From contig NZ_CANMQS010000004.1 in the NCBI RefSeq assembly GCF_947500075.1, positions 434,001 to 498,000 of the forward strand: a stretch of DNA of 64,000 bases. The letters are read 5' to 3'. Position numbers and translations under genes: made by a program. The notes beneath the pieces were generated by a model. The model was not told the DNA's origin. It ran no database searches and worked only from the letters and a program-made list of their open reading frames with translations. This stretch comes from an uncultured Sulfitobacter sp. (lineage in GTDB: Bacteria; Pseudomonadota; Alphaproteobacteria; Rhodobacterales; Rhodobacteraceae). How positions within the stretch are numbered: position 1 is the stretch's first letter; each line of letters starts with the position of its first letter. This document shows, piece after piece, positions 19,397 through 64,000 of the stretch.

Positions 19397-19410
19397 TTGA
19401 TGCGGATCAA
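19397..19410. promoter_or_regulatory. FNR/FnrL box (perfect)
   Basis: TTGATGCGGATCAA matches TTGAT-N4-ATCAA exactly. It lies 4 bp after bhcR and 54 bp before the small ORF at 19465. It is the first FNR box in the window and marks the start of the low-oxygen island. Confidence 0.75.
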
Positions 19411-19464
19411 TCCCTCAGGGCTGGTGAACGGTAGCCTGAGCCATCTCAGCCACGAGGACCGACA

Positions 19465-19674
19465 ATGGCAACATCTGACACAGCCGACCCGCCAGGAGAG
19501 ACCCCGCAGGAAGCGCCGATGCCGGTTGATCCCGGTGAAGCGCCGCTTGCTCCGGAAAGCCCGCAACCGATGGATCCAACCCGCGATCCCCAAACGCCTG
19601 AAATCCCGCAGACCACACCGCCAGCAGAAGACCCGCCGCCCGATCCGTTTGATGACGGGAATTTCCCGGTCTAG
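19465..19674 (+). CDS. Small proline- and acid-rich hypothetical protein
   Basis: 69-aa protein of no family I recognise. It is dominated by Pro, Asp/Glu and Thr (repeated PQ/PP/DP units) and is probably disordered; there is no signal peptide or membrane segment. An ACGAGGA site precedes the ATG and a perfect FNR box lies 54 bp upstream, which argues that it is expressed. The next gene follows by 36 bp, so the two may form an FNR-controlled operon. Confidence 0.55.
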   Translation: MATSDTADPPGETPQEAPMPVDPGEAPLAPESPQPMDPTRDPQTPEIPQTTPPAEDPPPDPFDDGNFPV

Positions 19675-19710
19675 CGTGCCGCGTAGCGGGAAAGCGCAAA
19701 GGAAGGCATG

Positions 19711-20553
19711 ATGCGCCTTGCTGTCGTGAGTGCCGGCCTGATTTTTGCGGTGGTGTCAGGGCTTGCGCTGTGGCGGGCGTGGAACCACCGGGCAGACCGG
19801 GCCGAGATGGCGCGTCTGTCTGCGCTGCAACCCTCAGACCCTGTACCATTCAGATATGACATGATTGCCGGTTTGCCGGAACCAGCACAGCGGTTTTTCC
19901 GGTTTTCGATTGCCGAGGGCACGCCGCTTTTGCCTGTTGTGACCATACGGATGCACGGGCGGTTCAGCATCGGCAACAAGGACGCGCCCAACGACTTGGC
20001 GATGCAGGCAACCCAGATACTGGCTGCACCTGAGGGTTTTATCTGGAAAGTGAAAGCGGGCGCCGGTGTCATGCGTCTGTCAGGATCTGACAGCGCCAAA
20101 TGGACCCGGTTCTGGATTGGATCAATCTGGCCCGTTGCACGACGTGGTGGGGATGCAGACCACAGGCGCGCGGCCTTTGGGCGCTATGTGGCTGAGGCGG
20201 TGTTCTGGTCTCCGGCTGCGGTCCTGCCCGGCCCGAATGTCAGATGGCAGGCGGTTGATGAAGACACGGCGCGGGTGACAGTCCACCATGCTGATCTGAC
20301 GCAAAGTGTTGATCTGACGGTGTCGAAGGAGGGTCAGCCAACCCAGATTGTCTTCGACCGCTGGAGCGATGCAAACCCAAGAAAGACCTACCAATTCCAG
20401 CCTTTCGGTGGGACCTTTTCAGCATTTCAGGACTTTCAGGGTTACCGGCTCCCGACGCGGGTGGCGGCCGGAAACTTCTTTGGAACGGATGAGTATTTCG
20501 CATTCTACCACGCTGAGGTGGATGAGATTTCATTTCCGGCGCGATCACCCTGA
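19711..20553 (+). CDS. Conserved hypothetical membrane-anchored protein (DUF6544/DUF6920-like)
   Basis: 280-aa protein with an N-terminal hydrophobic anchor (VVSAGLIFAVVSGLAL). The soluble domain has ARRGGDADHRRAAFGRYVAEAVFWSPAAVLP, a pattern I associate with an uncharacterised family of periplasmic proteins. Tandem ATGs at 19708 and 19711 follow an AAAGGAAGG site; the second has the better spacing. The role is unknown. It is probably cotranscribed with the proline-rich ORF from the FNR box at 19397. Confidence 0.7.
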   Translation: MRLAVVSAGLIFAVVSGLALWRAWNHRADRAEMARLSALQPSDPVPFRYDMIAGLPEPAQRFFRFSIAEGTPLLPVVTIRMHGRFSIGNKDAPNDLAMQATQILAAPEGFIWKVKAGAGVMRLSGSDSAKWTRFWIGSIWPVARRGGDADHRRAAFGRYVAEAVFWSPAAVLPGPNVRWQAVDEDTARVTVHHADLTQSVDLTVSKEGQPTQIVFDRWSDANPRKTYQFQPFGGTFSAFQDFQGYRLPTRVAAGNFFGTDEYFAFYHAEVDEISFPARSP

Positions 20554-20587
20554 TGCGCGGCCTGCGCGACTGACCTAGGCGCCTTCA

Positions 20588-20601
20588 TTGATTTTTCTCA
20601 A
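20588..20601. promoter_or_regulatory. FNR-like box (one mismatch)
   Basis: TTGATTTTTCTCAA differs from TTGAT-N4-ATCAA at one position and lies 95 bp upstream of the persulfide dioxygenase gene start. Confidence 0.5.
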
Positions 20602-20696: not shown

Positions 20697-21581
20697 ATGA
20701 CACAGTATCCCATACGCATGGATGTTCATCCCGACGTCGCGCCTTTCTTTGATCCCCAGACCAATACAATCAGCTATGTGGTGAAAGACCCCAACTCGAC
20801 CGCCTGCGCGGTGATCGACTCCGTCATGGACATTGATGTTGCGGCAGGGCGGATCACCTATGAGCACGCAGATGAGATCGTCGCCCATATTGAGGCGCAG
20901 GGCCTGAAACTTGAGTGGCTGATCGAAAGCCATGTCCATGCCGACCACCTGTCGGCTGCGCCCTACATCCAGTCGAAGCTGGGCGGCAGGATCGGGATCG
21001 GGGAGAAGATCACCATCGTGCAGGATACCTTCGGCAAGGTGTTCAACGAAGGCACCGAGTTCCAGCGAGACGGGTCGCAGTTTGACCAGTTGTTCAAGGA
21101 CGGCGACACCTACCAGATCGGTGGAATGCAAGGGTTTGCGATCCACACACCGGGTCATACGCCGGCATGTATGGTGCATGTGATCGGGAACGCGGCCTTC
21201 GTGGGTGATACGCTGTTCATGCCGGACGGCGGTTCAGCGCGGGCGGATTTTCCCGGTGGCGATGCAGGAGAATTGTACGATTCCATTCAGAAAGTGCTGG
21301 CGTTGCCCGATGAGATGCGGCTGTTCATGTGCCATGATTACGGCCCCGGCGGGCGTGAGATCATGTGGGAAACCACGGTCGCTGCTGAGAAGGAAAGCAA
21401 CATCCATGTGGGCCAGGGCAAGACCCGCGCGGAATTCATCGCATTCCGCGAGGCGCGGGATGCGACATTGGATGTGCCCAAGCTGATCCTGCCCTCGCTT
21501 CAGGTCAACATGCGCGCGGGTGACATTCCCAAAGCTGACAACGGCAAGCCGATGCTCAAGCTGCCCGTCAATGCGCTGTGA
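20697..21581 (+). CDS. blh: Persulfide dioxygenase-type MBL-fold protein (Blh/ETHE1-like)
   Basis: 294-aa metallo-beta-lactamase-fold protein. The metal motif is ESHVHADHLSAAPY and further ligands lie in HTPGHTPACMVH, GDTLFMPDGG and MCHDYGP. This set is typical of the ETHE1/Blh group, which oxidises glutathione persulfide to sulfite. The start at 20697 follows ATGGAG. It overlaps the region of a DUF442 gene downstream, a partner that is fused or adjacent in many bacteria, and a SulP transporter and di-haem cytochrome follow. I infer sulfide or persulfide detoxification under low oxygen. Confidence 0.85.
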   Translation: MTQYPIRMDVHPDVAPFFDPQTNTISYVVKDPNSTACAVIDSVMDIDVAAGRITYEHADEIVAHIEAQGLKLEWLIESHVHADHLSAAPYIQSKLGGRIGIGEKITIVQDTFGKVFNEGTEFQRDGSQFDQLFKDGDTYQIGGMQGFAIHTPGHTPACMVHVIGNAAFVGDTLFMPDGGSARADFPGGDAGELYDSIQKVLALPDEMRLFMCHDYGPGGREIMWETTVAAEKESNIHVGQGKTRAEFIAFREARDATLDVPKLILPSLQVNMRAGDIPKADNGKPMLKLPVNAL

Positions 21582-21604
21582 TGGACACCCGTTGGAGAGA
21601 CATG

Positions 21605-22029
21605 ATGGACCTTCGCATGCTTTCAGACCAGTTTCTGGTCGCCCCTCAGATCAGCAAGGCCGATCTTGCCTTGGTCAAGGCCAAGGGCATCCGGTCGGTG
21701 ATTTGCAACAGACCGGATGGGGAGGAGGCCGATCAACCCACGTTTGAGGAGATGTCCGTCACCGCGAAACATCTGGGGCTGCACATGCGGCACATCCCGG
21801 TTTCCGGCGGGACGGTGCAGGATGCGGATGTGGCGCTGTTCAAAGACGCGCTGGGTGATCTGCCCAAACCGATCCTTGCCTACTGCCGCTCTGGCACCCG
21901 TCCGCCACGCTGTGGTCTTTGGCGCAAGCCAAGGCGATGCCCTTGGCCGATATCCTGCGGGCAACGCAGCAGGCCGGATATGACATGATAGAGGTCTTGC
22001 GATCTTTCACCGGAGCCGCTGAGGCATGA
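21605..22029 (+). pseudogene. DUF442 (TIGR01244-type) sulfide-associated phosphatase-like protein, frameshifted
   Basis: The first ~99 codons encode a DUF442 protein (MLSDQFLVAPQISKADL at the start) with the P-loop-like signature YCRSGTR. The frame breaks at about 21900. After ACC CG the reading shifts by one base: TCC GCC ACG CTG TGG from 21901 onward continues the family C-terminus (SATLWALAQA-like) to a TGA at 22027-22029. A single-base deletion is the simplest explanation. In the original frame a 136-codon aberrant product would result (from 21578). The start at 21605 has GGAGAG with 6-7 nt spacing. The lesion is either a real mutation or an assembly/sequencing error. Confidence 0.8.
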
Positions 22030-22078
22030 TCCGGGCCAGCGATACGCCATTGGGCCCCATTGCCGGCACACCGGTACA

Positions 22079-23887
22079 ATGACCTCGGGGCAACAGGGTT
22101 CACAGCAGCGGAGGGGATGGGCGCGGTACCTCCCGATTGTCGTCTGGGGCCGCGCTTATGATCGCGGGGCGGCGGTCAACGATCTGACGGCGGCGCTGAT
22201 CGTGACGATCATGCTTATCCCGCAGTCACTGGCCTATGCGATGCTGGCAGGACTGCCCCCCGAAGCAGGGCTTTACGCCTCCATCGTGCCGATCCTGCTC
22301 TATAGCGTGTTTGGCACCAGTCGGTCGCTGGCCGTCGGCCCGGTCGCTGTCGTTTCCCTCATGACTGCCGCCGCAATTGGAGAGGTGACGCGCACAATTG
22401 ATGTGGGGTACGCCACTGCCGCCTTGACCCTTGCGGGTCTGTCGGGCGGCATTCTGCTGGCCATGGGGGTGCTGAGGCTTGGGTTTGTGGCCAACTTCCT
22501 GTCCCATCCGGTGATATCGGGTTTTATCACAGCCTCCGGCATCCTGATCGCCGTGAGCCAGTTCAAACATATCATGGGCGTGGAGGCTGAGGGTCATACC
22601 CTCGTGGCGCTTTTGGCATCGCTCTGGACGCATCTGGATGCGGTGAACAGCCTGACCCTCGCGATTGGTCTGGCGGCAACGGCGTTTCTGTTCTGGGTGA
22701 GGACGGGGTTGAGGCCTGTGCTGATCCGCGCGGGGCTCAGGCCCGGTGCGGCGGATTTTCTGGCGAAAGCGGGTCCGGTGCTGGCCGTTGTGGCGACAAC
22801 CCTTGCGGTCTGGCAATTCGATCTGGACGCAAGCGGCGTCAACATTGTCGGAGCGGTCCCGCAAAGCCTGCCGCCGCTGACATGGCCGGATCTGTCTCTG
22901 GACCTGATCGCGGCGCTGTTTGTGCCTGCTGTGCTGATCTCGATCATCGGGTTTGTTGAATCCATTTCCGTGGCGCAAACTCTTGCCACTAGGAAACGCC
23001 AGAGGATCGACCCGGATCAGGAGTTGATCGGTCTGGGGGCGGCCAATATTGGCGCGTCTTTGACGGGGGGATTTCCCGTCACCGGGGGTTTTTCAAGATC
23101 GGTGGTGAATTTCGATGCCGGTGCTGAGACGCCAGCGGCGGGGGCTTTCACCGCCGCAGGGCTTGGCATCGCAGCGCTGTACCTGACGCCACTCATCTAT
23201 TTTCTGCCCAAAGCAACACTGGCCGCGACCATCATCGTTGCGGTGCTGTCTCTGGTCGATTTCCGGACCCTGCGGCACAGCTGGGCCTATTCCAAACGCG
23301 ACTTTGGCGCGGTGGCCGCGACCATGGTGCTGACGCTCGCCTTCGGGGTCGAGATCGGCGTGACCTCCGGCGTGGTCCTGTCGATCCTGCTGTTCCTCTA
23401 TGACACTTCGCGCCCACATGTGGCGGAGGTGGGGCAGGTCGCCGGCTCAGAACACTTCCGCAATATCCTGCGCCATGCCGTCAAAACGGACCCACAGGTC
23501 CTGACCTTGCGCATTGATCAAAGCCTCTATTTCGCCAACGCGCGGTTTCTGGAGGATTACATCTATGACCGTGTGGTCGAGGACAAGGGCCGCAGACACG
23601 TGGTGCTGATGTGTTCTGCGGTGAATGAGATCGATCTGAGCGCGCTTGAGACCTTGGAGTTGATCAACATCCGGCTCAAGGAGATCGGGATTGATCTGTC
23701 CCTGTCAGAAGTAAAGGGGCCGGTGATGGACAGGCTCAAGCAAAGCGCGTTTTTGGATCGGCTTACGGGGGAGGTATTCCTGTCCCAATTCGAAGCGTTC
23801 AAGGCGTTGTCCGGCATGGACTTGGACGTAGACCCCGAGGGCAATGTGGGCGCAATAGACCGCAGTATGGAAGGAAGTACAGCATGA
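22079..23887 (+). CDS. SulP-family anion transporter with C-terminal STAS domain
   Basis: 602-aa inner-membrane protein. Some ten or more hydrophobic segments fill residues 30-430, including the SulP signature region LIPQSLAYAMLAGLPPEAGLY, and a STAS domain covers about 450-560. SulP proteins carry sulfate, bicarbonate or other oxyanions. Placement behind a persulfide dioxygenase suggests sulfite/sulfate movement linked to sulfur oxidation. The ATG is preceded by only a weak ribosome site, and the downstream cytochrome gene overlaps its stop by 4 bp. Confidence 0.9.
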   Translation: MTSGQQGSQQRRGWARYLPIVVWGRAYDRGAAVNDLTAALIVTIMLIPQSLAYAMLAGLPPEAGLYASIVPILLYSVFGTSRSLAVGPVAVVSLMTAAAIGEVTRTIDVGYATAALTLAGLSGGILLAMGVLRLGFVANFLSHPVISGFITASGILIAVSQFKHIMGVEAEGHTLVALLASLWTHLDAVNSLTLAIGLAATAFLFWVRTGLRPVLIRAGLRPGAADFLAKAGPVLAVVATTLAVWQFDLDASGVNIVGAVPQSLPPLTWPDLSLDLIAALFVPAVLISIIGFVESISVAQTLATRKRQRIDPDQELIGLGAANIGASLTGGFPVTGGFSRSVVNFDAGAETPAAGAFTAAGLGIAALYLTPLIYFLPKATLAATIIVAVLSLVDFRTLRHSWAYSKRDFGAVAATMVLTLAFGVEIGVTSGVVLSILLFLYDTSRPHVAEVGQVAGSEHFRNILRHAVKTDPQVLTLRIDQSLYFANARFLEDYIYDRVVEDKGRRHVVLMCSAVNEIDLSALETLELINIRLKEIGIDLSLSEVKGPVMDRLKQSAFLDRLTGEVFLSQFEAFKALSGMDLDVDPEGNVGAIDRSMEGSTA

Positions 23888-24432: not shown

Positions 24433-25278
24433 TTAGTGGCTCAGAAGAACCGGGAGCGCGGTCTGCTCGACCATTGACCGGGTGGTGCCGCCCAGAACGG
24501 TCTGCACCATGCGGGAATGGCCATAGGCACCCATCACGACCAGATCGGCGCCAAACTCCTGTGCGCGCTCCTGAATGCACTGGCCGACCTCACGCCCGCC
24601 GCTGGGAAACTGGGAAAGGGTGACAGTGCAGCCGTGATGGCTGAGCCATGCCGCAAGATCAGCACCGGGTTCCTGTCCATCCCGTTCGGATGTCATCACC
24701 GGGTCGATACAGCCGATCAGCACTTCCTTGGCCGCTTTCAGATGGGGCAGGGCGGCATGGGTGGCTGCGGCTGCGGCGTCGCTGCTGTCCCATGCGATGT
24801 AGATACGTTCGTTTGCATTGGCCAGCGATCCGTTGATGCGAAAGCCAATGGGGGAATGGAACAGAACACCGGACGCCGCTTCCCGCATGAATTCCGGTGT
24901 GTCGCGCAGGTTGGCGGCAAAGAACGCCTCATCACTGACCCGCGCCGCCCGTGCGACGTGGTGCTTGATGTCCTGCGTGACACACAGCGCTGACACGACA
25001 GCGCCCGATGTGTTGCTTTTGGCCAGCAGCCGTTCCACTGCGTTCACCCGGTCTTTCTGCGCGCTCTGCGCGTCGGCCACCAGTTCAGACCAATTGTCAG
25101 GGATGTTCATTCCCCCATAGGGCGGCACACCATAGGCATACATGGGCAGAATCGGTGCAAGCGCCAGAACAAGGCAGGTCAGATGGGTATCATCCCGTGC
25201 CGCCGCCTCTGCCGCATCGCTGATCTGGGCGTCGGGGGTGGCCGCGTTCATCACAAAGAGTATCGTCCGGCGGTTCAT
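24433..25278 (-). CDS. Universal stress protein, tandem UspA domains
   Basis: 281-aa protein with two Usp folds. The first (1-145) is degenerate. The second (150-281) carries the ATP-binding signature GAYGHSRMVQTVLGGTTRSMV near the C-terminus. The start at 25278 follows ATGGAG with good spacing; nine upstream codons were rejected. It is divergent from cbpA, with an FNR-like box between them (25361), so it is probably induced at low oxygen. Tandem Usp proteins are common in hypoxia regulons. Confidence 0.87.
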   Translation of the reverse strand: MNRRTILFVMNAATPDAQISDAAEAAARDDTHLTCLVLALAPILPMYAYGVPPYGGMNIPDNWSELVADAQSAQKDRVNAVERLLAKSNTSGAVVSALCVTQDIKHHVARAARVSDEAFFAANLRDTPEFMREAASGVLFHSPIGFRINGSLANANERIYIAWDSSDAAAAATHAALPHLKAAKEVLIGCIDPVMTSERDGQEPGADLAAWLSHHGCTVTLSQFPSGGREVGQCIQERAQEFGADLVVMGAYGHSRMVQTVLGGTTRSMVEQTALPVLLSH

Positions 25279-25360
25279 CGCAGTCTCCATTTGCTGAGCA
25301 TTCACCCGGATAGCCGTCCGGGCCGTCTGCCAAGGATGTCACACCGCCCGGTTGGAGCAA

Positions 25361-25374
25361 CTGATACAGATCAA
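25361..25374. promoter_or_regulatory. FNR-like box (one mismatch)
   Basis: CTGATACAGATCAA lies 59 bp before cbpA (25434) and 82 bp before the divergent usp gene (25278). Confidence 0.6.
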
Positions 25375-25433: not shown

Positions 25434-26366
25434 ATGGAATTCAAAAATTATTATGACGTGCTTGGCGTATCGCGCGGGGCGGATGCGGCAGAGATCAAGA
25501 AAGCCTTTCGCAAGCTGGCGCGGACCTATCACCCTGACATCAACACGGGCGCTGAAGCGGAGGCGAAGTTCAAGGATGTGAATGAAGCCTATGAGGTTCT
25601 CAAGGATCCCGAACGCCGCGCGGCCTATGACCAATTGGGCAAGGAGCCTCCGCAAGGGGGCGCGGGCTACAGCCCGCCGCCGGGGTGGGACAGCGGTTTT
25701 GCGTTCTCAGACAGCGGCGGGCACGACGATGCGGCATTCAGCGAGTTCTTTGAAACCCTGTTCCGGCGTGACCGCGCCCCGAGGGGCGGCATGGGGGCCG
25801 CGCGCGGGGCCGACAGCCATGGCCGGATCGAGGTCGCGGTGGAGGATGCCTTTACCGGCGCGACCCGGCAGCTGAGCCTCAGATCTCCCGTGGTCGGGCC
25901 TGACGGCACTGTCACGCTGAAGCACCGGACCATCGCTGTGACCATCCCGAAGGGCATTGGCGCAGGCCAGCATATCCGGTTGGCAGGGCAGGGGGAGCCG
26001 GGATTTGGTCAGGGACCTGCGGGTGATCTGTTTCTCGAAGTCAGCTTTGCCCCCCATCCGGTCTACCGCCCCGATGGCAGGGACCTGCATCTGGATCTGC
26101 CGATCGCCCCTTGGGAAGCTGCGTTGGGCGGGCATGTCGTGATGCCAACCCCCGGAGGCAAGGTGGATCTGCGCATCCCCAGGAACGCGCGGACCGGTCA
26201 GAAGATGCGGCTGAAGGGCAAGGGCCTGCCGGGAACGCCCGCAGGCGACATCTATGCCACACTCAAGATTGTGAACCCGAAAGTCGAAACCGCGCAAGCG
26301 CGCGCCTTTTTCGAGAAGATGTCAAAGGAGATGCCCTTTGACCCGCGCGCCCATCTGGGAGGATAG
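25434..26366 (+). CDS. cbpA: DnaJ-type co-chaperone CbpA
   Basis: 310-aa class B J-protein. The N-terminal J domain (1-70) has the HPD motif at residues 33-35. A Gly-rich linker follows, with no zinc-finger repeats, and then two C-terminal substrate-binding beta domains. It stimulates DnaK ATPase and binds unfolded or nucleoid substrates. CbpM is encoded 3 bp downstream, which fixes the assignment over other DnaJ paralogues. The upstream FNR-like box suggests induction on oxygen limitation. Confidence 0.92.
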   Translation: MEFKNYYDVLGVSRGADAAEIKKAFRKLARTYHPDINTGAEAEAKFKDVNEAYEVLKDPERRAAYDQLGKEPPQGGAGYSPPPGWDSGFAFSDSGGHDDAAFSEFFETLFRRDRAPRGGMGAARGADSHGRIEVAVEDAFTGATRQLSLRSPVVGPDGTVTLKHRTIAVTIPKGIGAGQHIRLAGQGEPGFGQGPAGDLFLEVSFAPHPVYRPDGRDLHLDLPIAPWEAALGGHVVMPTPGGKVDLRIPRNARTGQKMRLKGKGLPGTPAGDIYATLKIVNPKVETAQARAFFEKMSKEMPFDPRAHLGG

Positions 26367-26369
26367 GAG

Positions 26370-26672
26370 ATGAAAAAGACCAAACCGCACAGCACGGTTG
26401 TGACCGCCTTGTCCCTACAGGACCTGTGCCGCTTCTGTCAGGCGGATGAAGCCTGGGTGATGGAACTGGTGCAACACGGGGTGCTGGAACCCAAAGGCAA
26501 CAGCGTGGAAAGTTGGCAGTTCATGGGCCGCAGCATCGTGCGCGCCAAGAAAGCGCGCCGCCTGAACCGTGATTTGGGCATCAACACCGCAGGTGTGGCG
26601 CTGGTGCTGGAACTGCTGGAAGAGCGGGACGCAGTGCTGAGGCGGCTGGCGCAATATGATGGGTTGAGCTGA
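26370..26672 (+). CDS. cbpM: Chaperone modulator CbpM
   Basis: 100-aa MerR-like helical protein that binds the J domain of CbpA and inhibits it. The sequence shows the LQDLCRFCQADEAWVMELVQHGVLEP helix-turn-helix-like N-terminus and a C-terminal dimer helix (LVLELLEERDAVLRRLA). It starts 3 bp after cbpA, as in other cbpAM operons. Confidence 0.87.
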   Translation: MKKTKPHSTVVTALSLQDLCRFCQADEAWVMELVQHGVLEPKGNSVESWQFMGRSIVRAKKARRLNRDLGINTAGVALVLELLEERDAVLRRLAQYDGLS

Positions 26673-28325: not shown

Positions 28326-29231
28326 TCACCCCGCTGGCGTATCCATGCTGACCCGCGTGCCCGTTGTCCCCTCAACCAATGCCATGCAATCCGCCAGCCT
28401 TCCGATGGCTGCAAAGCCACCTGTGGCGCGGGCAAAGTCGCAGGCGGCTTCAACCTTTGGCCCCATGGAGCCTGCGGGGAAGGTCTTTTCGCTCAGCGCC
28501 TGTGGTGTTGCGTGACGGATCACCTGCTGGTCCGGCGTGCCCCATCCATCAAAGACCCCTTCGACATCCGTCAGCATCAGGAAGGCATCGGCGTTCAACG
28601 CACGCGCCAGATGGCCGCTGGCGTGGTCCTTGTCGATCACCGCCTCAACGCCAACCATCATCCCGTCGGGTTTCTGCACAACCGGAATGCCGCCCCCGCC
28701 TGCGCAGATCACGATCACCCCCTGATCCAACAGCAGGTTGATCACGTCGATCTCCAGGATGCGCTGCGGCCGGGGGGAGGGGACCGTGCGGCGAAAATGC
28801 GCACCGTCCCGGCCAATCGTCCAGCCGCGCTCCGCGCTGAGCTGAACGGCTTCTTCTTCGGTATAGATCGGGCCGATGAACTTGGTCGGGGTCCGGAAGG
28901 CCGGATCGCGCGGATCCACTTCGATCTGGGTCAGCAGGGTCGCGTATTTCGCCGCAGGCACATAGGCGTTGTCCAGCTCCTGTTGCAGGACATAGCCGAT
29001 CATGCCGTCCGTCTCTGCCCCCAGCACATCAAGCGGGAACGGTCCGCCCTGCAAGGCCAGATACCCCACTTGCGGACCGTTGCCGTGGGTGATCACCACC
29101 TCATGGCCCGCCTCCAGCAGGGTGGCGAGGGATTTGGCCGCAACGCGAATACTCGCGCGTTGACCCGCAGCGGTCAGGGCTTCGCCCCGTTTTGACAAGG
29201 CGTTTCCACCCAAAGCAACGACAATGCGCAT
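28326..29231 (-). CDS. arcC: Carbamate kinase
   Basis: 301-aa amino-acid-kinase fold protein starting RIVVALGGNALSKRGE, with GNGPQVGYL, CAGGGGIPV and DKDHASGHLAR motifs. It makes ATP from carbamoyl phosphate, the energy-yielding last step of the arginine deiminase pathway. Last gene of the arc operon, directly following arcB. Confidence 0.95.
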   Translation of the reverse strand: MRIVVALGGNALSKRGEALTAAGQRASIRVAAKSLATLLEAGHEVVITHGNGPQVGYLALQGGPFPLDVLGAETDGMIGYVLQQELDNAYVPAAKYATLLTQIEVDPRDPAFRTPTKFIGPIYTEEEAVQLSAERGWTIGRDGAHFRRTVPSPRPQRILEIDVINLLLDQGVIVICAGGGGIPVVQKPDGMMVGVEAVIDKDHASGHLARALNADAFLMLTDVEGVFDGWGTPDQQVIRHATPQALSEKTFPAGSMGPKVEAACDFARATGGFAAIGRLADCMALVEGTTGTRVSMDTPAG

Positions 29232-30233: not shown

Positions 30234-30236
30234 CGG

Positions 30237-35232: not shown

Positions 35233-35289
35233 GGTCGTATTCCTTCAACTGCTATCCTTGCGGGGCACCCGGAGGTGCCCCGGCGCAGG

Positions 35290-35848: not shown

Positions 35849-35862
35849 TTGATCCCGATCAA
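35849..35862. promoter_or_regulatory. FNR/FnrL box (perfect), divergent
   Basis: TTGATCCCGATCAA lies 73 bp from the hsp20 start (35775) and 64 bp from the bactofilin-like gene start (35927). Confidence 0.75.
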
Positions 35863-37108: not shown

Positions 37109-37129
37109 CCCTGAAGAAGGAGAAACAAG

Positions 37130-38561: not shown

Positions 38562-38638
38562 TCGGCTGGCCTCCAATTGCTGGGAGAGGCTATTGTGGCT
38601 CCGGAACGTAACCCGTGTTGTTACAGATTTGCGCGCTC

Positions 38639-47780: not shown

Positions 47781-47794
47781 TTGAGCAATATCAA
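47781..47794. promoter_or_regulatory. FNR-like box (one mismatch), divergent
   Basis: TTGAGCAATATCAA lies 58 bp from the P-type ATPase start (47722) and 61 bp from the phasin start (47856). Confidence 0.6.
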
Positions 47795-47855
47795 CCCAAA
47801 CGCGCCCTGCGCCGCCTATTCTTTGCGGGTAACTTCACACATTGGAGGATCTACA

Positions 47856-51066: not shown

Positions 51067-51070
51067 TGGG

Positions 51071-53434: not shown

Positions 53435-53440
53435 GCTGCC

Positions 53441-54196: not shown

Positions 54197-54210
54197 TTGA
54201 TCAATCTCAA
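54197..54210. promoter_or_regulatory. FNR-like box (one mismatch)
   Basis: TTGATCAATCTCAA overlaps the last codons of the flavodoxin gene and lies 48 bp from the start of the ABC exporter/phaC operon (54148). Confidence 0.5.
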
Positions 54211-54770: not shown

Positions 54771-54784
54771 TTGATACAGATCAA
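54771..54784. promoter_or_regulatory. FNR/FnrL box (perfect), divergent
   Basis: TTGATACAGATCAA lies 54 bp from the flavodoxin start (54716) and 49 bp from the Crp/Fnr gene start (54834). Confidence 0.75.
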
Positions 54785-54833
54785 TAGGCGCGGGGGTTTT
54801 CTGACCTAAAAGACCACAAAGAGGATGCAAACA

Positions 54834-55502
54834 ATGCTCAAGAACCCACCATGGAGAGATCGGTTTCCCGGACTGACCGGCCTGTCGGATGCTGTCTCCG
54901 ACCTGCTGGACCGGCGGGCGACATCCGCGCACCTGTCCAAGGGGTCGCTGATCTTCGGACCGGGCAAACCCGCGCAACACCTGCTGTTGCTGGTGTCCGG
55001 CACGGTGCGGGTGCAACAGCTGTCCGACGCGGGACGTGAGATCGTGCTCTACCGGGGCCATGCCGGGGAAAGCTGCGTTCTGACCACCGCCTGCCTTCTG
55101 GCGTTTGAGGATTACTCCGCCGAAGGCATCGCCGAAACCGATGTCGAAGCGATCCTGATCCCCCGCGACGCCTTTGATGAGATGATGTCCGTCTCCAAGG
55201 AATTCCGCGCCTTTGTGTTCGAAGCCTACTCCAAGCGCATCACGGAGCTGTTCATGGTCATCGAAGAGATTGCGTTCAAACGGATGGACATCCGCGTGGC
55301 GCAAAAGCTGATCGAACTCAAAGGGTCAGACAGTGTCCTGCATCTCACCCACCAGCAACTGGCGGTGGAACTTGGCACCGCGCGGGAGGTGATTTCCCGG
55401 CAACTCAAGGAATTTGAGCGTCGGGGGTGGGTGACCCTTGGCCGTGGCCAGATCGAATTGCAGGACATGGCGGCCATCGATCGGCTGGCAAAACTGCCAT
55501 AG
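54834..55502 (+). CDS. Crp/Fnr-family regulator with CRP-like recognition helix
   Basis: 222-aa regulator. The N-terminal beta roll (HLSKGSLIFGPGKPAQHLLLLVSGTVRV) and long dimer helix lead to a winged helix. Its recognition helix reads TAREVISRQLKEFE: R-E-x-x-x-R as in CRP, combined with the S-R of FNR. It should therefore prefer a TGTGA-like half-site, and a TGTGA-N5-TCACA palindrome lies 18 bp downstream of the gene. Cysteine-rich oxygen-sensor motifs are absent. The start at 54834 is set by AAGAGG 9 nt before it. It probably regulates the DUF2892/YeeE genes next door. Confidence 0.85.
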   Translation: MLKNPPWRDRFPGLTGLSDAVSDLLDRRATSAHLSKGSLIFGPGKPAQHLLLLVSGTVRVQQLSDAGREIVLYRGHAGESCVLTTACLLAFEDYSAEGIAETDVEAILIPRDAFDEMMSVSKEFRAFVFEAYSKRITELFMVIEEIAFKRMDIRVAQKLIELKGSDSVLHLTHQQLAVELGTAREVISRQLKEFERRGWVTLGRGQIELQDMAAIDRLAKLP

Positions 55503-55803: not shown

Positions 55804-55806
55804 CCT

Positions 55807-56238
55807 ATGGAAACAGAATTCACACCATTTGCCTCCCTTGCCGGGGGGGTGTTGATTGGGTTGGCGGCCGTGCTCCTGATGCTCTTGCGTGGGCGGATCA
55901 TGGGCGCCACCGGTGTGCTTGCAGGCGCGATGCTGCCTGCCAGCCGCTATGACTGGACCTGGCGGGCCGCGTTGCTTGCCGGGATGTTTGCAGGCCCCTG
56001 GGTCTTTTTCGCCCTTCAGGGCCAATTGCCCCAGATCGAGGTGCCTGCGGCCACGCCGATGCTGCTGGTCGGCGGCTTTCTGGTCGGGGTCGGGGTGACG
56101 CTGGGAAGCGGCTGTACCTCTGGCCATGGGGTGTGCGGGATGGCGCGGCTGTCATCCCGGTCATTTGCGTCGACGGCGATGTTCATGTTGACCACCGGTC
56201 TGACAGTCTACGCCCTGCGCCATCTTTGGGGAGCATGA
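55807..56238 (+). CDS. YeeE/YedE-family sulfur transporter subunit
   Basis: 143-aa membrane protein with four helices. The conserved GSGCTSGHGVCGMARLS lies between helices 3 and 4; its cysteines are thought to relay thiosulfate or sulfide species in YeeE. It is half-size, as in PmpA-type pairs, and pairs with the following gene (3 bp gap). Confidence 0.87.
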   Translation: METEFTPFASLAGGVLIGLAAVLLMLLRGRIMGATGVLAGAMLPASRYDWTWRAALLAGMFAGPWVFFALQGQLPQIEVPAATPMLLVGGFLVGVGVTLGSGCTSGHGVCGMARLSSRSFASTAMFMLTTGLTVYALRHLWGA

Positions 56239-56241
56239 ACC

Positions 56242-56688
56242 ATGCGTACACTCTGGACCTTCTTCATTGGCGTGATCTTCGGCACAGGTATCGCCTTTTC
56301 CGGCATGGCCAACCCTGCAAAGGTGATCAACTTCTTTGACGTGGCAGGAACGTGGGATCCAAGTCTTGCCTTTGTCATGGGCGGTGCGGTGGTGACGGCC
56401 TTCATCGGCTACCGCCTTGTCTGGCGCCGTGCGGCACCGATCTATGAACCGACTTTTGATATCCCTCAGAAAACCACACTTGATGCACGCCTGCTGACAG
56501 GTGCTGGCATCTTCGGGGTCGGATGGGGCATCGCGGGCTTTTGCCCCGGCGGGGCATTGCCGGCGCTGGGCACGCTGAATACGCAGGTGATCCTCTTCGT
56601 GCTGGCGCTGATCGCGGGTATGCTCGCCACGCGGTTTGTCTCCTCCGCACTGGCGCGCCAGCAATCACCGACCAGCGCCGCGCAGTAG
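56242..56688 (+). CDS. YeeE/YedE-family half-size partner (DUF6691/PmpB-like)
   Basis: 148-aa membrane protein with four helices and the motif GIAGFCPGGALPALG near residues 95-110, the counterpart of the cysteine motif in the partner. Together the two form one YeeE-like unit for sulfur-species uptake or export. The operon with DUF2892 and a Crp-type regulator suggests sulfide or sulfane-sulfur stress handling. Confidence 0.85.
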   Translation: MRTLWTFFIGVIFGTGIAFSGMANPAKVINFFDVAGTWDPSLAFVMGGAVVTAFIGYRLVWRRAAPIYEPTFDIPQKTTLDARLLTGAGIFGVGWGIAGFCPGGALPALGTLNTQVILFVLALIAGMLATRFVSSALARQQSPTSAAQ

Positions 56689-56708: not shown

Positions 56709-56722
56709 TTGATCCCGGTCAA
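56709..56722. promoter_or_regulatory. FNR-like box (one mismatch)
   Basis: TTGATCCCGGTCAA lies 55 bp upstream of the DksA-like gene start. Confidence 0.55.
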
Positions 56723-56777: not shown

Positions 56778-57101
56778 ATGCCAGACCTCACCCACTACGA
56801 AACACTGATCAAAGCGCGGCTCGGAGAGCTTGATGAGCGGGTTCACGACGTTGACCATGAGCTGGCAGAGCCGAAGTCAGCCGATTTGAACGAGCAGGCC
56901 ATCGACATCGAAGATGATGAGGTGCTGGAAAGTCTGGGTGCCGCTGCGCAAAAGGAGATCGCCTTGCTCAACCTGGCACTGGCCCGGATCGAAGACGGCA
57001 CCTACGGCATTTGCCAAAAATGCGAGGAGCCAATCTCCGATGCGCGGCTTGCAGCGGTGCTGTATGCGCCATTGTGCAAGACCTGCGCCCAGGGTGGCTG
57101 A
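56778..57101 (+). CDS. TraR/DksA-type zinc-finger protein
   Basis: 107-aa protein. An N-terminal coiled coil (about 1-70) ends in acidic EDDEVLESL, followed by a C4 zinc finger with C79, C82, C100 and C103 (CQKC...CKTC). It is shorter than DksA and like YbiI/TraR, and may bind the RNA polymerase secondary channel. FNR-like box 55 bp upstream. Tail to tail with the antiporter gene. Confidence 0.87.
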   Translation: MPDLTHYETLIKARLGELDERVHDVDHELAEPKSADLNEQAIDIEDDEVLESLGAAAQKEIALLNLALARIEDGTYGICQKCEEPISDARLAAVLYAPLCKTCAQGG

Positions 57102-58847: not shown

Positions 58848-58861
58848 TTGATCTGAATCAA
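58848..58861. promoter_or_regulatory. FNR/FnrL box (perfect), divergent
   Basis: TTGATCTGAATCAA lies 95 bp from the cytochrome c start (58752) and 92 bp from the MlaE-like start (58954). Confidence 0.7.
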
Positions 58862-58953: not shown

Positions 58954-60087
58954 GTGGTACGCGCACAGCCAATTTCCAACAGGACGATCAATACGTTCAT
59001 CGAGGAGGGCCGACTGGTTCTCACGGGGGCGCTGCTGATTGATACCCTGACCCAACTGCCACGGGACATCCTTTCCATACCCCATGACAACGTGTCTGCC
59101 ATTGATGTCTCCGGCTTGTCTCAGATTGACACGGCGGGTGCGTGGTTCCTGATCGAACAGCAAAACCGGACAGCACAGAGCGGGCCGCCCGCACAGATCA
59201 CGGGCGCGACGGATGTGCAGGCACAACTCATTGAAACCGTGCGGCGCCATATGCCACCCACTGACGGCCCCTCAGACAGGCCGATGTCCCTTGCCGACCA
59301 TCTGGAGGCCTTTGGCCAAAAAATCATGCGGGGTTACCGCATGATGTTGGAACTCACGTCTTTTCTGGGACAGGTGGTCGCCACGCTGGGCGGGATCGTC
59401 CGGCACCCCGGCCGACTGCGCCTGACCTCCGTTGTCCATCACTGTCAGGAAATCGGTGTGAGCGCGGTGCCCATCGTGGCACTGATGGCGTTTCTCATTG
59501 GTGTCGTGCTCGCGTTTCAGGGGTCCGCGCAGTTGCGGCAGTTCGGTGCAGAGGTGTTTGTCGTCGATCTGATCGCCATCTCGATCCTGCGGGAACTGGG
59601 CATCCTGTTGACCTCTATCATCGTGGCGGGGCGGTCGGGGTCGGCCTTCACGGCCGCCATCGGCTCCATGAAAATGCGCGAGGAAATTGACGCCATGCGC
59701 ACGCTTGGCCTTGATCCAGTGACAATCCTTGTGGTGCCGCGGGTGCTGGCGCTGATGCTGATGCTGCCTGCGCTGGGGTTCATCGCGAACATATCGGGGC
59801 TGATCGGCGGTATGCTGATGTCCTGGATCGAACTGGGCGTGTCACCGGCGGTCTTCCAGACCCGTCTGGTCAGCAACACGGACGTCTGGCACTTTGGCGT
59901 TGGCATGATCAAAGCGCCTTTCTTTGCGCTGATCATTGGCATCATCGGATGTTATGAAGGTATGAAAGTCGGCGGCAACGCTGAATCGCTGGGGCGGCTT
60001 ACCTCCGCATCTGTGGTGCTCTCGATCTTTCTGGTCATCGTGATGGACGCCCTGTTTTCCATCTTCTTTGCCGTGGTGGGTGTGTGA
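58954..60087 (+). CDS. mlaE: MlaE-type ABC lipid permease with N-terminal STAS domain
   Basis: 377-aa protein. Residues 1-100 form a STAS domain (NVSAIDVSGLSQIDTAGAWFLIE). The MlaE permease occupies 150-377 (VPIVALMAFLIGVVLAFQGSAQLRQFG, GRSGSAFTAAIGSMKMREEIDAM). In E. coli the STAS protein MlaB is separate; here it is fused. Translation starts at GTG behind AGGGTGG. It begins a four-gene operon for phospholipid transport between the membranes, apparently controlled by the FNR box 92 bp upstream. Confidence 0.9.
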   Translation: MVRAQPISNRTINTFIEEGRLVLTGALLIDTLTQLPRDILSIPHDNVSAIDVSGLSQIDTAGAWFLIEQQNRTAQSGPPAQITGATDVQAQLIETVRRHMPPTDGPSDRPMSLADHLEAFGQKIMRGYRMMLELTSFLGQVVATLGGIVRHPGRLRLTSVVHHCQEIGVSAVPIVALMAFLIGVVLAFQGSAQLRQFGAEVFVVDLIAISILRELGILLTSIIVAGRSGSAFTAAIGSMKMREEIDAMRTLGLDPVTILVVPRVLALMLMLPALGFIANISGLIGGMLMSWIELGVSPAVFQTRLVSNTDVWHFGVGMIKAPFFALIIGIIGCYEGMKVGGNAESLGRLTSASVVLSIFLVIVMDALFSIFFAVVGV

Positions 60088-60878
60088 TGGCCCCCGCAGA
60101 AGACCCCATCATCCGGGTGCGGGGGCTGGTCACGCGGTTTGGCACCCATACCGTGCACGATGGGCTGGATCTGGACGTCAGACGCGGAGAGATCGTCGGC
60201 GTGGTCGGCGGCTCCGGCACGGGCAAGTCGGTGCTTTTGCGCGCCATCGTCGGTCTGCTCGAACCCCAGGCCGGCCAGATTGAGGTCTTCGGACAAAGCG
60301 TGCGCGCCACATCAGATGCGGAGTTTCGCGCGCTGCGCCGCCGCTGGGGGGTGATGTTTCAGGATGGCGCGCTGTTTTCCTCGCTGACTGTGCGCCAGAA
60401 CGTCGAAGCGCCGATGCGCGAACAGCTACAGCTTGACGACCGCATGCGCGAAACCCTTGCCGGGATCAAGGTGCGCATGGTCGGCCTGCCGGAAAACGCG
60501 ATGCAGAAATACCCCTCTGAGCTGTCCGGCGGCATGCGCAAACGGGCAGGGTTCGCCCGCGCCATCGCCATGGACCCCGAGATCGTCTTTCTGGACGAAC
60601 CCACCGCCGGCCTTGATCCCATCGGCGCGGCCGCGTTTGATATCCTGATCAAGCAACTTCAGGCCGCTCTTGGGCTCACCGTCTTTCTTGTCACCCACGA
60701 TCTCGATAGCCTGCATGCCATCTGCGACCGTATTGCGGTCCTTGCGGATCAAAAGGTGCTGGCAGTGGGCACGATGGAGGACATGCTGAAAGTAGATCAC
60801 CCCTGGGTGCACGAATATTTCCACGGCCCGCGCGCCCGCGCGGCTTTGTCAACAGCCCAACCTGACGGGGTAAGGTAA
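60087..60878 (+). CDS. mlaF: MlaF-type ABC ATPase
   Basis: 263-aa ATPase with Walker A GGSGTGKS, signature LSGGMRKR (typical of MlaF/Ttg2A), Walker B IVFLDEPTAGLD and H-loop VTHD. The ATG overlaps the stop of mlaE (TGATG) and the gene shares one base with mlaD. An earlier GTG at 60084 is possible but adds only one residue. Confidence 0.92.
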   Translation: MAPAEDPIIRVRGLVTRFGTHTVHDGLDLDVRRGEIVGVVGGSGTGKSVLLRAIVGLLEPQAGQIEVFGQSVRATSDAEFRALRRRWGVMFQDGALFSSLTVRQNVEAPMREQLQLDDRMRETLAGIKVRMVGLPENAMQKYPSELSGGMRKRAGFARAIAMDPEIVFLDEPTAGLDPIGAAAFDILIKQLQAALGLTVFLVTHDLDSLHAICDRIAVLADQKVLAVGTMEDMLKVDHPWVHEYFHGPRARAALSTAQPDGVR

Positions 60879-62593
60879 TGGAAACCCGCGCGAATTTCAT
60901 CCTGATCGGGCTATTCACCCTGTTGTCCATTCTGGGCACGCTGGCATTCTTTGTCTGGCTGGCAAGCGTGCAGATCAACAAGCAATATCAGACCTATGGC
61001 ATCCTGCTTGAGGACGTCTCGGGCCTCGATCCGTCGGGAGACGTGCTGTTCAACGGCATTTCGGTGGGGCGCGTGATCGGGCTGCGCATTGCGGAACAGG
61101 ATCCCTCCAAGGTCTTCACCACCATCGAAATCGAAGCGGACACGCCGGTGCGGTCTGACACCATCGCGCAATTGCAGGCGCAGGGGGTCACAGGCGTCGC
61201 ATTTATCTCCCTGTCTGGCGGTACACTTTCCGCACCGCCATTGGTCGCGGATGAGAACGGATGGCTGATCATCCCCTCCCGCCGCTCCACCGTGCAATCC
61301 CTTGTGGAGGATGCCCCGAACCTGCTGGAAGAAGCGACCGAACTGCTGGAACAGTTTCAGGTGCTCACGGGGCCGGAAAACCAGGCCTACGTCAGCAACA
61401 TCCTGCGCAATCTGGACCGCTCATCAGGGCGTCTGGATCAGGCGCTGAACGATTTCTCCGAAATCTCCGGCACCGTGCGCGATGCAACCGCCCAGATCAG
61501 CGGTTTCACGGACCGCCTTGATACCATCGGCGCCTCGGTCACCACCACGCTTGAGCAGGCCGACAGCACGCTGACCGCGGCACGAGGCGCCTTTGAGGAA
61601 GCGCAAACCGCGCTGACCCGTTCCGTGGATGCAATAGACAGCGCCGAAGGCGTCTTTGATCAGGGGCAGCTTATCCTTGCGGAACAGGTGCCTGACATCC
61701 TCGCGCAGATATCCCAGGCCGCAGCACAGACAAACGCGGCGATTGCCGATCTACAGGCGCGGTCCGGCGCGACACTGGAGGGGTTCACCGAAACCTCCGA
61801 TCTGCTGAACAGCCGCCTCAAGGAACTCGAAGTCACGCTGCAAGAGGCCAACACCGCGTTTCTGGCGGTCACCGGTGCCTCAGACAGCTTTGATACGCTG
61901 GTCGTGGGGGACGGCGCGCAACTGGTGGCGGAGGCCCGCGTTGTCCTTGCTGACGCAAGGGCGGCGATCGCAACAATCGAAACGGTCATGCGCGATGATG
62001 TGCCCGTGATCATGACCGATATACGCGACGGGATCAGCACCGCGCGGCAGGCCGTTGATGACGTCGCCGCCAACCTGACCGGCGTGTCTAACAATCTCGC
62101 CCCCATGACCGATGAGATGCGAGAGGCGATTGCCTCTGCCAATACGTTGTTTGCCAAGGCGCAAGGCAGTCTGACGACCCTCGATACGACACTGGAGGTG
62201 GCAGAAGGCGCGCTGGGCGCTGCCCAGACGACCTTCGATGCCGCAACAGGGGTGCTGGAGACGGATTTTGAACCAATGATGACCGATCTACGCACAGCAT
62301 CTGACCAGATCAGCCGGGCCATTACGGAGGTGACCGCGGACATGCCCGCCGTGACCGAAGACCTGCGCGCCCTGATCGCGCGCAGTGACGCTGTGGTTCA
62401 GGACGTGCAGCGCACCGTCGCCCAGTCCAGACCCGGCATCAATGATTTTGCCAACCGGGGCCTGCCGGAAATGACGCGCCTTGCGGCTGAGGCACGCACG
62501 CTGGTCAAAACCCTTGGTGATCTGGTGCGCCGGATTGAGCGTGACCCCGCGCGTTTCATTCTCGACGGGCGCGTGCCCGAATACAGGAGGTAG
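60878..62593 (+). CDS. mlaD: MlaD/MCE-family protein with long C-terminal helical region
   Basis: 571-aa protein. An N-terminal anchor (FILIGLFTLLSILGTLAFFVWLA) is followed by one MCE domain (about 35-130, LLEDVSGLDPSGDVLFNGISVGRV). After it, more than 400 residues are predicted alpha-helical and Ala/Thr/Gln-rich. E. coli MlaD is about 180 residues, so the extra region may span the periplasm as a tunnel or tether, as in longer MCE proteins. Confidence 0.88.
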   Translation: METRANFILIGLFTLLSILGTLAFFVWLASVQINKQYQTYGILLEDVSGLDPSGDVLFNGISVGRVIGLRIAEQDPSKVFTTIEIEADTPVRSDTIAQLQAQGVTGVAFISLSGGTLSAPPLVADENGWLIIPSRRSTVQSLVEDAPNLLEEATELLEQFQVLTGPENQAYVSNILRNLDRSSGRLDQALNDFSEISGTVRDATAQISGFTDRLDTIGASVTTTLEQADSTLTAARGAFEEAQTALTRSVDAIDSAEGVFDQGQLILAEQVPDILAQISQAAAQTNAAIADLQARSGATLEGFTETSDLLNSRLKELEVTLQEANTAFLAVTGASDSFDTLVVGDGAQLVAEARVVLADARAAIATIETVMRDDVPVIMTDIRDGISTARQAVDDVAANLTGVSNNLAPMTDEMREAIASANTLFAKAQGSLTTLDTTLEVAEGALGAAQTTFDAATGVLETDFEPMMTDLRTASDQISRAITEVTADMPAVTEDLRALIARSDAVVQDVQRTVAQSRPGINDFANRGLPEMTRLAAEARTLVKTLGDLVRRIERDPARFILDGRVPEYRR

Positions 62594-62597
62594 TCCC

Positions 62598-63209
62598 ATG
62601 CCCGATCTGACCCGCCGTGTTGCCATGTCAGGGGCGCTCTTCGCCCTCGGAGGATGCAGTACGCTCAGCGCGCTCAGCAGCGCAAGTGAAGTGCTGGACA
62701 CCTACGATCTGACCCCGGCTTCCGGGTCGAAACAGGGGCGGCGGACCGCGCGCACCTTGCTGGTCGCCCGCCCGCAAGCCACCGCGGTGCTGACAACAGA
62801 CCGCATTCTGGTCAAACCGGATCCCGCAACCGTCACCTACCTGCCGGACGCGCGATGGGGGGACGAACTCCCTGCCGTGGTGCAGTCCCTGTTGATCCGC
62901 AGCATCTCTGAAACCGGGCGCATCGGATATGTGGGGCGCAGTGATGCGGGCCCGGTGCCGGACAAGGCGATGCTTGTCCGTATAGATGCGTTTGAAGTTC
63001 AGGAGGTACCTGCCGGCGGCTACCTTGTTGCGGTGGATATGGACCTGACGATCCTCAACGACCGGGACCAGACCGTCGTTGCATCGCGCCGCTTTCAGGA
63101 CACCGCCCGGATTCCAGATGATCAGCCAGCGACCATCGTCGGCGCGTTTCAGGCCATCCTTGATGCTGTGTTGCCGGCAATCGCCGATTGGGCGGTTGTG
63201 CGGGTGTAG
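62598..63209 (+). CDS. ABC-type transport auxiliary lipoprotein (Mla/PqiC-like)
   Basis: 203-aa protein with a lipoprotein signal (ALFALGGCS lipobox; MPDLTRR start behind CAGGAGG). The mature domain has YDLTPASGSKQGRRTARTLLVARPQA and a VADFQI-type core, typical of ABC_trans_aux lipoproteins that accompany MCE transporters in the periplasm. It is the last gene of the mla operon, 4 bp after mlaD. Confidence 0.86.
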   Translation: MPDLTRRVAMSGALFALGGCSTLSALSSASEVLDTYDLTPASGSKQGRRTARTLLVARPQATAVLTTDRILVKPDPATVTYLPDARWGDELPAVVQSLLIRSISETGRIGYVGRSDAGPVPDKAMLVRIDAFEVQEVPAGGYLVAVDMDLTILNDRDQTVVASRRFQDTARIPDDQPATIVGAFQAILDAVLPAIADWAVVRV

Positions 63210-63238
63210 CGGGGACCGGCAGCGAAAGCGGAACGGCA

Positions 63239-63252
63239 TTGATCCAGATCAG
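63239..63252. promoter_or_regulatory. FNR-like box (one mismatch)
   Basis: TTGATCCAGATCAG lies 64 bp upstream of the nitroreductase start. Confidence 0.55.
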
Positions 63253-63316
63253 GCGGGACGGGCGAAAGCGCTGTAGCGATGGGGCGACACCCACCTGCGC
63301 CTGAAAGGACGATGAT

Positions 63317-64000
63317 ATGCTGTCACGTCGACGACTGCTGACCACGGGTCTGTCCGCCGCCGCTCTCTGCGCCGTTGGCTACAGCATGTGGCCCCGCCTT
63401 GATGCCTACAATGAACAAGTCGCCCGCCAAAGACGGCTGATGGAAGCTGACCCGGAACGGGCGGATCTGATCCGCATGTCCACACTGGCCGCCAACAGCC
63501 ACAACACCCAGCCGTGGACCTTCCAACTGGAAGACCGCCGCGTGATCATCCGTCCGGATTTGACCCGGCGCACGGCTGTTGTCGATCCGGAGGATCATCA
63601 CCTCTACATCAGTCTGGGATGTGCTGCTGAAAACCTGTCTATCGCGGCCCGCACCCATGGATGGCAGCCGGCGCTTTCCGTTGTGCGCGGGGCGGAAACC
63701 GCGATCTCCATCGACCTCGACAGCACCGGTGCGAAAGCCTCTTACCTCTATCAGGCGATCCCCTTGCGGCAATCAACCCGGTCGGACTATGACGGGCGGG
63801 CGGTGCCGACACAGGACCTGAACACGCTGGCGGCGGCCGCAGCCCAGGAGGGCGTGTCGGTTCGGTTTGTCACAGACCCTTCTGACATGGATGCGATTGC
63901 AGATCTGGTGGTCGCGGGCAACGGCGTCCAGATGGACAACCCTGCGTTCATTCAGGAATTGCGCGACTGGATCCGGTTCACACCGGACCAGGCGATTGCC
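63317..64000 (+). CDS. Tat-exported nitroreductase-family protein (Acg-like), 3' end cut by window edge
   Basis: The visible 228 residues start with a twin-arginine signal (SRRRLLTTG plus a hydrophobic stretch). A nitroreductase-like domain follows with AANSHNTQPWTFQ and LGCAAENLSIAARTHGW. This is the pattern of the Acg (Rv2032) group of FMN-binding oxidoreductases, which often have lost the dimer partner half. AAAGGAC precedes the ATG. The upstream FNR-like box fits hypoxic induction; in mycobacteria acg belongs to the DosR regulon. The catalytic C-terminal part lies outside the window. Confidence 0.83.
   Translation, partial: MLSRRRLLTTGLSAAALCAVGYSMWPRLDAYNEQVARQRRLMEADPERADLIRMSTLAANSHNTQPWTFQLEDRRVIIRPDLTRRTAVVDPEDHHLYISLGCAAENLSIAARTHGWQPALSVVRGAETAISIDLDSTGAKASYLYQAIPLRQSTRSDYDGRAVPTQDLNTLAAAAAQEGVSVRFVTDPSDMDAIADLVVAGNGVQMDNPAFIQELRDWIRFTPDQAIA

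Follow-up and report, generated by a model that had tools for sequence, protein, structure and literature searches.

The DosR/DevR regulon is governed by a NarL/LuxR-type response regulator with a GAF-haem kinase. A different circuit, hFixL-FxkR-FixK, works in two stages in Rhizobium leguminosarum (PMC7888657; articles are cited here for the parts of their text that were available). The hFixL-FxkR-FixKf type has been dated to the ancestor of the Rhizobiaceae, and a 2016 survey of 50 alphaproteobacterial genomes gave only FnrN-type regulators for Rhodobacterales in the available part of the article (PMC4999443). No report of the circuit in Rhodobacterales was found in the open-licence literature at title and abstract level, which is weak evidence of absence since subscription journals lie largely outside it, and no open-licence report was found that treats roseobacter FnrL, Usp and arginine deiminase together. 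Here, we analysed 64,000 nucleotides (the window) of an uncultured Sulfitobacter sp. (GCF_947500075.1, contig NZ_CANMQS010000004.1, positions 434,001 to 498,000), in which an original prediction, made from the letters alone, had described a 44-kb island (19397 to 63317) of FNR boxes (TTGAT-N4-ATCAA) with a DosR-like dormancy gene set. The analysis supported a real, conserved and clustered set of FNR/FixK boxes before stress genes. The island is probably a low-oxygen stress regulon, conserved and modular, that belongs to Sulfitobacter-type Rhodobacterales and has its own hFixL-FxkR-FixK-type circuit.

The five perfect sites (19397, 35849, 41081, 54771, and 58848) were all found where they had been predicted. 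Boxes with one mismatch numbered nine rather than the seven claimed (20588, 25361, 33783, 44074, 44496, 47781, 54197, 56709, and 63239); seven are intergenic, which matches the number claimed, and two lie within coding sequence (33783 in the EEP gene and 44496 in the CaCA gene). All 14 boxes of the window with at most one mismatch fall in 19397-63252. None was detected left of 19397, as had been claimed, and the 32 kb to the right of the window contained only one, at window-equivalent position 87130. Shuffled versions of the window contained a mean of 1.45 and a maximum of five such boxes. The genome (4.86 Mb) contains 19 perfect sites and 212 sites with at most one mismatch, of which the island holds five and 14, respectively, in 0.9% of the sequence; the expectation for 43.9 kb from the rest of the genome is 0.13 and 1.80. 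Among 20,000 uniform random placements, five had some 43.9-kb stretch with five perfect sites and none had one with 14 sites. Box density is not uniform over the genome, the claim of clustering stands, and chance falls far short of explaining the cluster. Of the 14 perfect sites elsewhere, three are at hemN/fnrL-, ccoN-, and ccoG-like genes and two precede OmpW-like and HemA-like genes (all identified by eye from translations); among the nine left, several sit in open frames and may have arisen by chance. The gene for FnrL, a protein that has its Cys cluster, lies on the contig of the island, next to hemN- and ccoN-like genes with three perfect boxes.

Conservation of the boxes was followed across 19 loci, comprising the window, eight Rhodobacterales loci, and ten genus genomes that were picked, mostly for long contigs, from 31 with the island's response regulator and are thus a non-random sample in which the regulator is present by choice. 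A synteny search in relatives showed that the eight loci (from Octadecabacter, Roseobacter, Sulfitobacter, Jannaschia, and one Rhodobacteraceae metagenome-assembled genome) share, each to a different degree, the gene order around the M50/CBS anchor and carry boxes in the corresponding gaps; in one of them (L040), a short contig, the regulator genes are absent. Boxes with at most one mismatch were detected in 128 of the 344 upstream regions of the 19 loci and 45 were perfect; 19 permuted half-site motifs gave 0 to 10 matches and no perfect match in the same regions. Box-to-gene spacings were mostly fixed across loci (e.g., 47-50, 62-64, and 115-116 bp). The FixK-like gene adjoined the response regulator in all ten chosen genus genomes; other genes come and go.

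The response regulator was present in 31 of 58 genus genomes (E<=1e-50). Genes for the M50/CBS protease (21 of 21) and the bactofilin (14 of 14) were found only in these 31, and neither was found in any of the 27 genomes without the regulator at the cut-offs used. The number of perfect boxes per genome was higher when the regulator was present (one-sided Mann-Whitney p 0.003; 21 genomes at least 90% complete), a comparison from which three less complete genomes were dropped; G006, with 22 boxes and no response regulator, was among them and ran against the trend. At the class level (E<=1e-60), the regulator was detected in seven of 289 genomes including its own, a patchy distribution. A single package shared across phyla found no evidence, with 12 of 18 M50/CBS loci outside Rhodobacterales (14 of the 18 in Streptomyces) having no other nearby island homologue at the cut-offs used. 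One genus genome has M50/CBS and bactofilin homologues with internal stop codons, possibly decaying copies, on a contig other than that of its response regulator (G002:C2:175424-178314).

The candidate circuit is encoded at 37887-41029 by a FixK-like Crp/Fnr gene, a divergent OmpR-type regulator gene, and a convergent hybrid kinase gene, as follows.

37887-38561, minus strand: FixK-like Crp/Fnr regulator without an FNR-type Cys cluster; start judged by eye, conserved ATGTATG
38640-38655, plus strand: K-box-like direct repeat TGTATC-N4-TGTATC
38730-39479, plus strand: OmpR-type response regulator, FxkR-like (PF00486)
39476-41029, minus strand: PAS-HisKA-HATPase-REC hybrid kinase, hFixL-like; PAS diverged, Q in the haem His column
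41081-41094: perfect box, about 59 bp to the kinase gene and about 61 bp to a baeRF/Host_attach gene

The closest solved relative of the FixK-like protein is FixK2 (4i2o, E 2.4e-34 vs. 2e-19 for FNR) and that of the kinase PAS domain is FixL. With the experimentally characterised proteins of R. leguminosarum plasmid pRL9 as queries, whose coordinates agree with the published ones, the best match of FxkR9 in this genome was the island response regulator (47%; next 39%), an orthology that comes from a one-way search, and the best match of hFixL9 was the island kinase (41%; next 35%). This direct comparison was used because a plasmid search with the response regulator was unspecific; it gave the whole OmpR family (at least 5000 records), and one R. 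etli match had neither a kinase nor a FixK pair alongside. Other trios were seen on plasmids. A more distant FixK, response regulator and kinase type lies beside ccoNOQP, ccoG/FixH/ccoS, and Usp genes on the Sulfitobacter plasmid pDSM110093_a, and a comparable trio on plasmid pB of Sinorhizobium meliloti LMB1 has as neighbours two Usp genes, argF, and genes for a P-type ATPase and a CBS protein; two perfect anaeroboxes occur nearby.

An FNR box was found upstream of the FixK-like gene in none of 18 loci and upstream of the response regulator gene in none of 18, which fits control by a second motif, the direct repeat. The sequence TGTATC-ATTT-TGTATC lies between these two genes, about 86 bp from the FixK-like start, and is the only perfect TGTAWC-N4-TGTAWC in the 4.86-Mb genome. 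With A or T at the variable base and at most one mismatch, the repeat was present in 18 of 18 loci; the strict TGTATC repeat, again with at most one mismatch, was present in 14 of 18, and the 119 other permutations were present in at most one. A direct repeat with a 10-bp period suits an OmpR-type protein. The rhizobial fixK9b-fxkR9 gap contains GGTAAC-AGTT-TGTAAC, placed and oriented alike and at about 95 bp from where fixK9b starts; the published K-box spelling fitted the window with two to three mismatches at best. An inverted repeat in the same gap (GTAAC-N7-GTTAC, 38609-38625) is perfect in the window and was found in no other of 12 aligned gaps, and it was set aside.

The haem-ligand column of the FixL PAS domain was compared in 26 kinase loci besides that of the window, two of which are cut before that point. 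Histidine was present in all 24 readable genus relatives and in the R. leguminosarum hFixL9, S. meliloti, and Terrarubrum copies, and the window kinase has Q. The window kinase also lacks two residues in the loop after this column. Compared with 12 relatives, its PAS domain reaches a mean identity of 0.44, where the relatives themselves reach 0.60-0.70, and its DHp/CA (0.81) and REC (0.73) domains are within the normal range. These values suggest that the sensory input has changed or decayed and the output has been kept, and that decay of the oxygen-sensor domain has apparently occurred in the strain studied here. Since the PAS domain lacks a haem ligand, the oxygen signal in this strain probably enters mainly through FnrL.

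Pfam scans covered 40 island proteins, a subset of the island genes taken from 19.4 kb rightward. They confirmed three Usp proteins, Hsp20, CbpA/CbpM, the P-type ATPase, M50/CBS, VIT1, CaCA, phasin, PhaC, DksA, cytochrome c, and MlaE/MlaD. The gene list of the original prediction was right, with caveats on two of its assignments of control. No box lies within 200 bp of arcD, and PhaC, which has none of its own, closes an apparent ABC-FtsX-HlyD-PhaC operon whose first gene has a box about 55 bp upstream. The other boxes and genes of the island are as follows.

19397-19410: perfect FNR/FixK box; a small proline-rich open reading frame follows at 19466, about 62 bp from the box centre
20588-20601: box with one mismatch, preceding an MBL-fold gene by 102 bp; spacing identical in 3 of 4 loci
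24433-25284, minus strand: Usp 1 (PF00582)
25361-25374: box with one mismatch, between Usp 1 and cbpA
25434-26672, plus strand: cbpA (DnaJ/DnaJ_C) and cbpM-like gene (MerR_2), by Pfam
28326-32902, minus strand: arcDABC-type arginine deiminase cluster, named from translations; arcD of the DcuC family; no box of its own
34393-35775, minus strand: Usp 2 and Hsp20, by Pfam
35849-35862: perfect box in the Hsp20/bactofilin-like gap; before bactofilin in 12 of 13 loci and Hsp20 in 5 of 5
35927-37561, plus strand: bactofilin-like membrane protein (below the Pfam cut-off) and DUF2267 protein
41149-42066, plus strand: baeRF12/Host_attach protein and Usp 3, by Pfam
42109-43964, minus strand: M50/CBS membrane protease and VIT1 protein, by Pfam
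44074-44087: box with one mismatch in the VIT1/CaCA gap; before VIT1 in 8 of 11 loci and CaCA in 7 of 7
44121-45158, plus strand: CaCA, Na/Ca exchanger family protein, by Pfam
45143-47722, minus strand: P-type cation ATPase, by Pfam
47781-47794: box with one mismatch in the P-ATPase/phasin gap; before P-ATPase in 3 of 8 loci and phasin in 5 of 13
47853-48203, plus strand: phasin (carbon-storage granule protein), by Pfam
48206-54148, minus strand: ABC ATPase, FtsX permease, HlyD, and PhaC, apparent operon; PhaC and FtsX by Pfam, HlyD and ABC ATPase from translations
54197-54210: box with one mismatch, preceding the ABC ATPase by about 55 bp; 5 of 6 loci have a box here
54771-54784: perfect box, preceding the second Crp/Fnr gene by about 47 bp; 9 of 10 loci have a box here
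54825-55502, plus strand: second Crp/Fnr regulator without an FNR-type Cys cluster, adjoining two YeeE-type genes
56709-56722: box with one mismatch, preceding a DksA/TraR gene by 63 bp; 9 of 10 loci have a box here
56778-57101, plus strand: DksA-like protein, by Pfam
58848-58861: perfect box in the cytochrome c/mlaE gap; 8 of 8 loci have a box ahead of the cytochrome gene and 3 of 8 ahead of mlaE
58954-63209, plus strand: mlaEFD and auxiliary lipoprotein; MlaE, MlaD, and ABC_trans_aux by Pfam, MlaF from translation
63239-63252: box with one mismatch, 71 bp before an Acg-like nitroreductase; seen in the window only
63317-64000, plus strand: Acg-like nitroreductase, cut by the window end; weak Pfam matches below the cut-off

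Three further features were seen, mostly at or near the left edge of the island. Four genes and an IclR regulator gene at 14010-19392, which by their translations resemble bhcABCD and bhcR of the beta-hydroxyaspartate cycle, end just before the first box. The MBL-fold gene after the box at 20588, presumably persulfide-dioxygenase-like, could belong to a sulfur-handling set (20697-23887 and 55807-56688) with a BLH phosphatase, SulP, and the two YeeE-type genes by the second Crp/Fnr gene. The BLH-phosphatase gene (21578-21988) has a short frame with an odd tail and is apparently broken in frame near its end, perhaps through sequencing error or decay.

In the regulon that we favour, the anaeroboxes at the island promoters would be readable by both FnrL and the FixK-like protein, with binding, phosphotransfer, and oxygen response predicted from sequence. 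The FixL-like PAS hybrid kinase would phosphorylate the OmpR-type FxkR-like regulator, which would bind the TGTATC-N4-TGTATC repeat between fixK and its own gene and turn on the FixK-like activator. The activator would then act on genes for chaperones, Usp proteins, ion pumps, carbon storage, the second Crp/Fnr regulator, and membrane maintenance. The anaerobox that precedes the kinase gene (10 of 17 loci) would create a feed-forward loop starting at FnrL, and a further such loop would follow from the box ahead of the second Crp/Fnr gene (9 of 10 loci). One motif would have two readers, FnrL for near-anoxia and the FixK-like activator by way of the kinase and the response regulator.

A number of observations weigh against this regulon. 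The sensor domain of this very strain's kinase looks damaged, no kinase was found beside the response regulator in three of 29 genus loci or in Tropicibacter, and only 10 of 17 loci have a box ahead of the kinase gene. The FixK-like clade (support 0.99) stands apart from rhizobial FixK9a/b and joins FixK2 and the Terrarubrum FixK weakly (0.76). The response regulator is missing from 27 of 58 genus genomes, and one of its 31 matches is borderline (G069, 44%). The loci of the footprint are related to one another, and a box between divergent genes enters the count two times. For the direct repeat, the half-sites in most loci, TGTATC (GATACA), are one base off the published K-box GTTACA-N4-GTTACA (TGTAAC), with the same placement, spacing, and orientation. 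Near-matches of the repeat are not enriched in the genome (19 with at most one mismatch vs. 33 for the reversed pattern) and the window has three matches with at most two mismatches vs. 3.31 expected, so the case for the repeat rests on its conserved position. Moreover, FnrL, the FixK-like protein, and another Crp/Fnr protein (L020) have the same E-xx-SR recognition helix by eye, and the boxes are therefore not assignable to one regulator; recognition helices were also indistinguishable among the groups analysed in PMC4999443.

Either FnrL or the FixK-like protein could use the boxes, judging from their sequences, and the island could simply be part of the FnrL regulon, with the local FixK-like circuit vestigial or serving something else here. 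The FnrL gene on the same contig with three perfect boxes nearby, the Usp genes among the FnrL targets of Dinoroseobacter shibae (PMC5398030), and the window kinase, with its missing haem His and low PAS identity, are consistent with that explanation. However, the kinase and receiver domains and the FixK-like and response-regulator genes are as conserved as in relatives, unlike what decay would leave, and the tested island genes occur only together with the response regulator, though linkage alone could cause that. We regard control by FnrL alone as unlikely, if a serious competitor, and the island-borne hFixL-FxkR-FixK-type circuit and the K-box-like repeat, both missed in the original prediction, mean that there are candidate regulators other than FnrL. 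Clustering by chance, or through ascertainment by the reader of the window, deserves practically no credence; the window was chosen for its cluster, but the genome-wide scan and the cross-species footprint refute such an origin.

A true relationship to the DosR/DevR dormancy regulon would account for the common functional classes (Usp, Hsp20, M50/CBS, P-ATPase, and Acg-like, with the mycobacterial list as given in the original prediction), and the functional resemblance noted in the original prediction is fair but general. Homology of control was not supported. No DosR box was detected with up to three mismatches to the consensus, and the sole two-component pair among the 40 scanned proteins, a Trans_reg_C regulator and a PAS-HisKA-REC kinase, is not of the DosR type, its response regulator being OmpR-type and its kinase a PAS hybrid. 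Usp and nitroreductase genes also cluster around osdR in Streptomyces coelicolor (PMC5069765). A further island homologue was found near M50/CBS in just six of 18 loci outside Rhodobacterales. The regulator families already largely refute a true relationship to DosR/DevR, and we consider it very improbable.

Within the favoured regulon, a more specific proposal is advanced tentatively, as possible rather than probable. A Rhodobacterales hFixL-FxkR-FixK circuit would be tied to a modular dormancy-type stress island, and in this strain the sensor would have been uncoupled from oxygen by loss of the haem pocket with the kinase core, regulator, operator, and regulon intact, the circuit now being driven by another input or by FnrL through the kinase anaerobox. 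If the favoured regulon is borne out, marine Rhodobacterales would have another low-oxygen circuit in addition to FnrL, and survival functions resembling those of DosR would be tied to a FixK-type regulon; one strain without the haem ligand that its relatives retain offers a natural experiment in sensor loss.

The island resembles DosR/DevR and the Streptomyces OsdR cluster (PMC5069765) in functional classes and in the clustering of low-oxygen survival genes and differs from them in regulators, motif, and lineage. The predicted alphaproteobacterial FNR/FixK/DNR core regulon has entries for Hsp20, HlyD/ABC permease, CBS, cytochrome c, UspA, and DksA (Dufour 2010, PMC2908626, Table 1), matched here by annotation name only, and it is not described in the available part of that article as one island with its own circuit. 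Several Usp genes are under FnrL in D. shibae, and the available part of PMC5398030 describes no such 44-kb island or FixK-type cascade. The hFixL-FxkR-FixK systems of R. leguminosarum and R. etli (PMC7888657, PMC4999443) share with the island a FixL-like PAS kinase with a C-terminal receiver, an OmpR-type regulator, a divergent fixK-fxkR pair with a direct-repeat operator between, and anaeroboxes downstream; the distant trio on the Sulfitobacter plasmid (L064) adjoins ccoNOQP as in rhizobia. Unlike the rhizobial systems, the island lies in Rhodobacterales, has a half-site that is mostly TGTATC rather than TGTAAC, a FixK of another branch, an output of stress genes and, in this strain, a PAS domain without the haem His.

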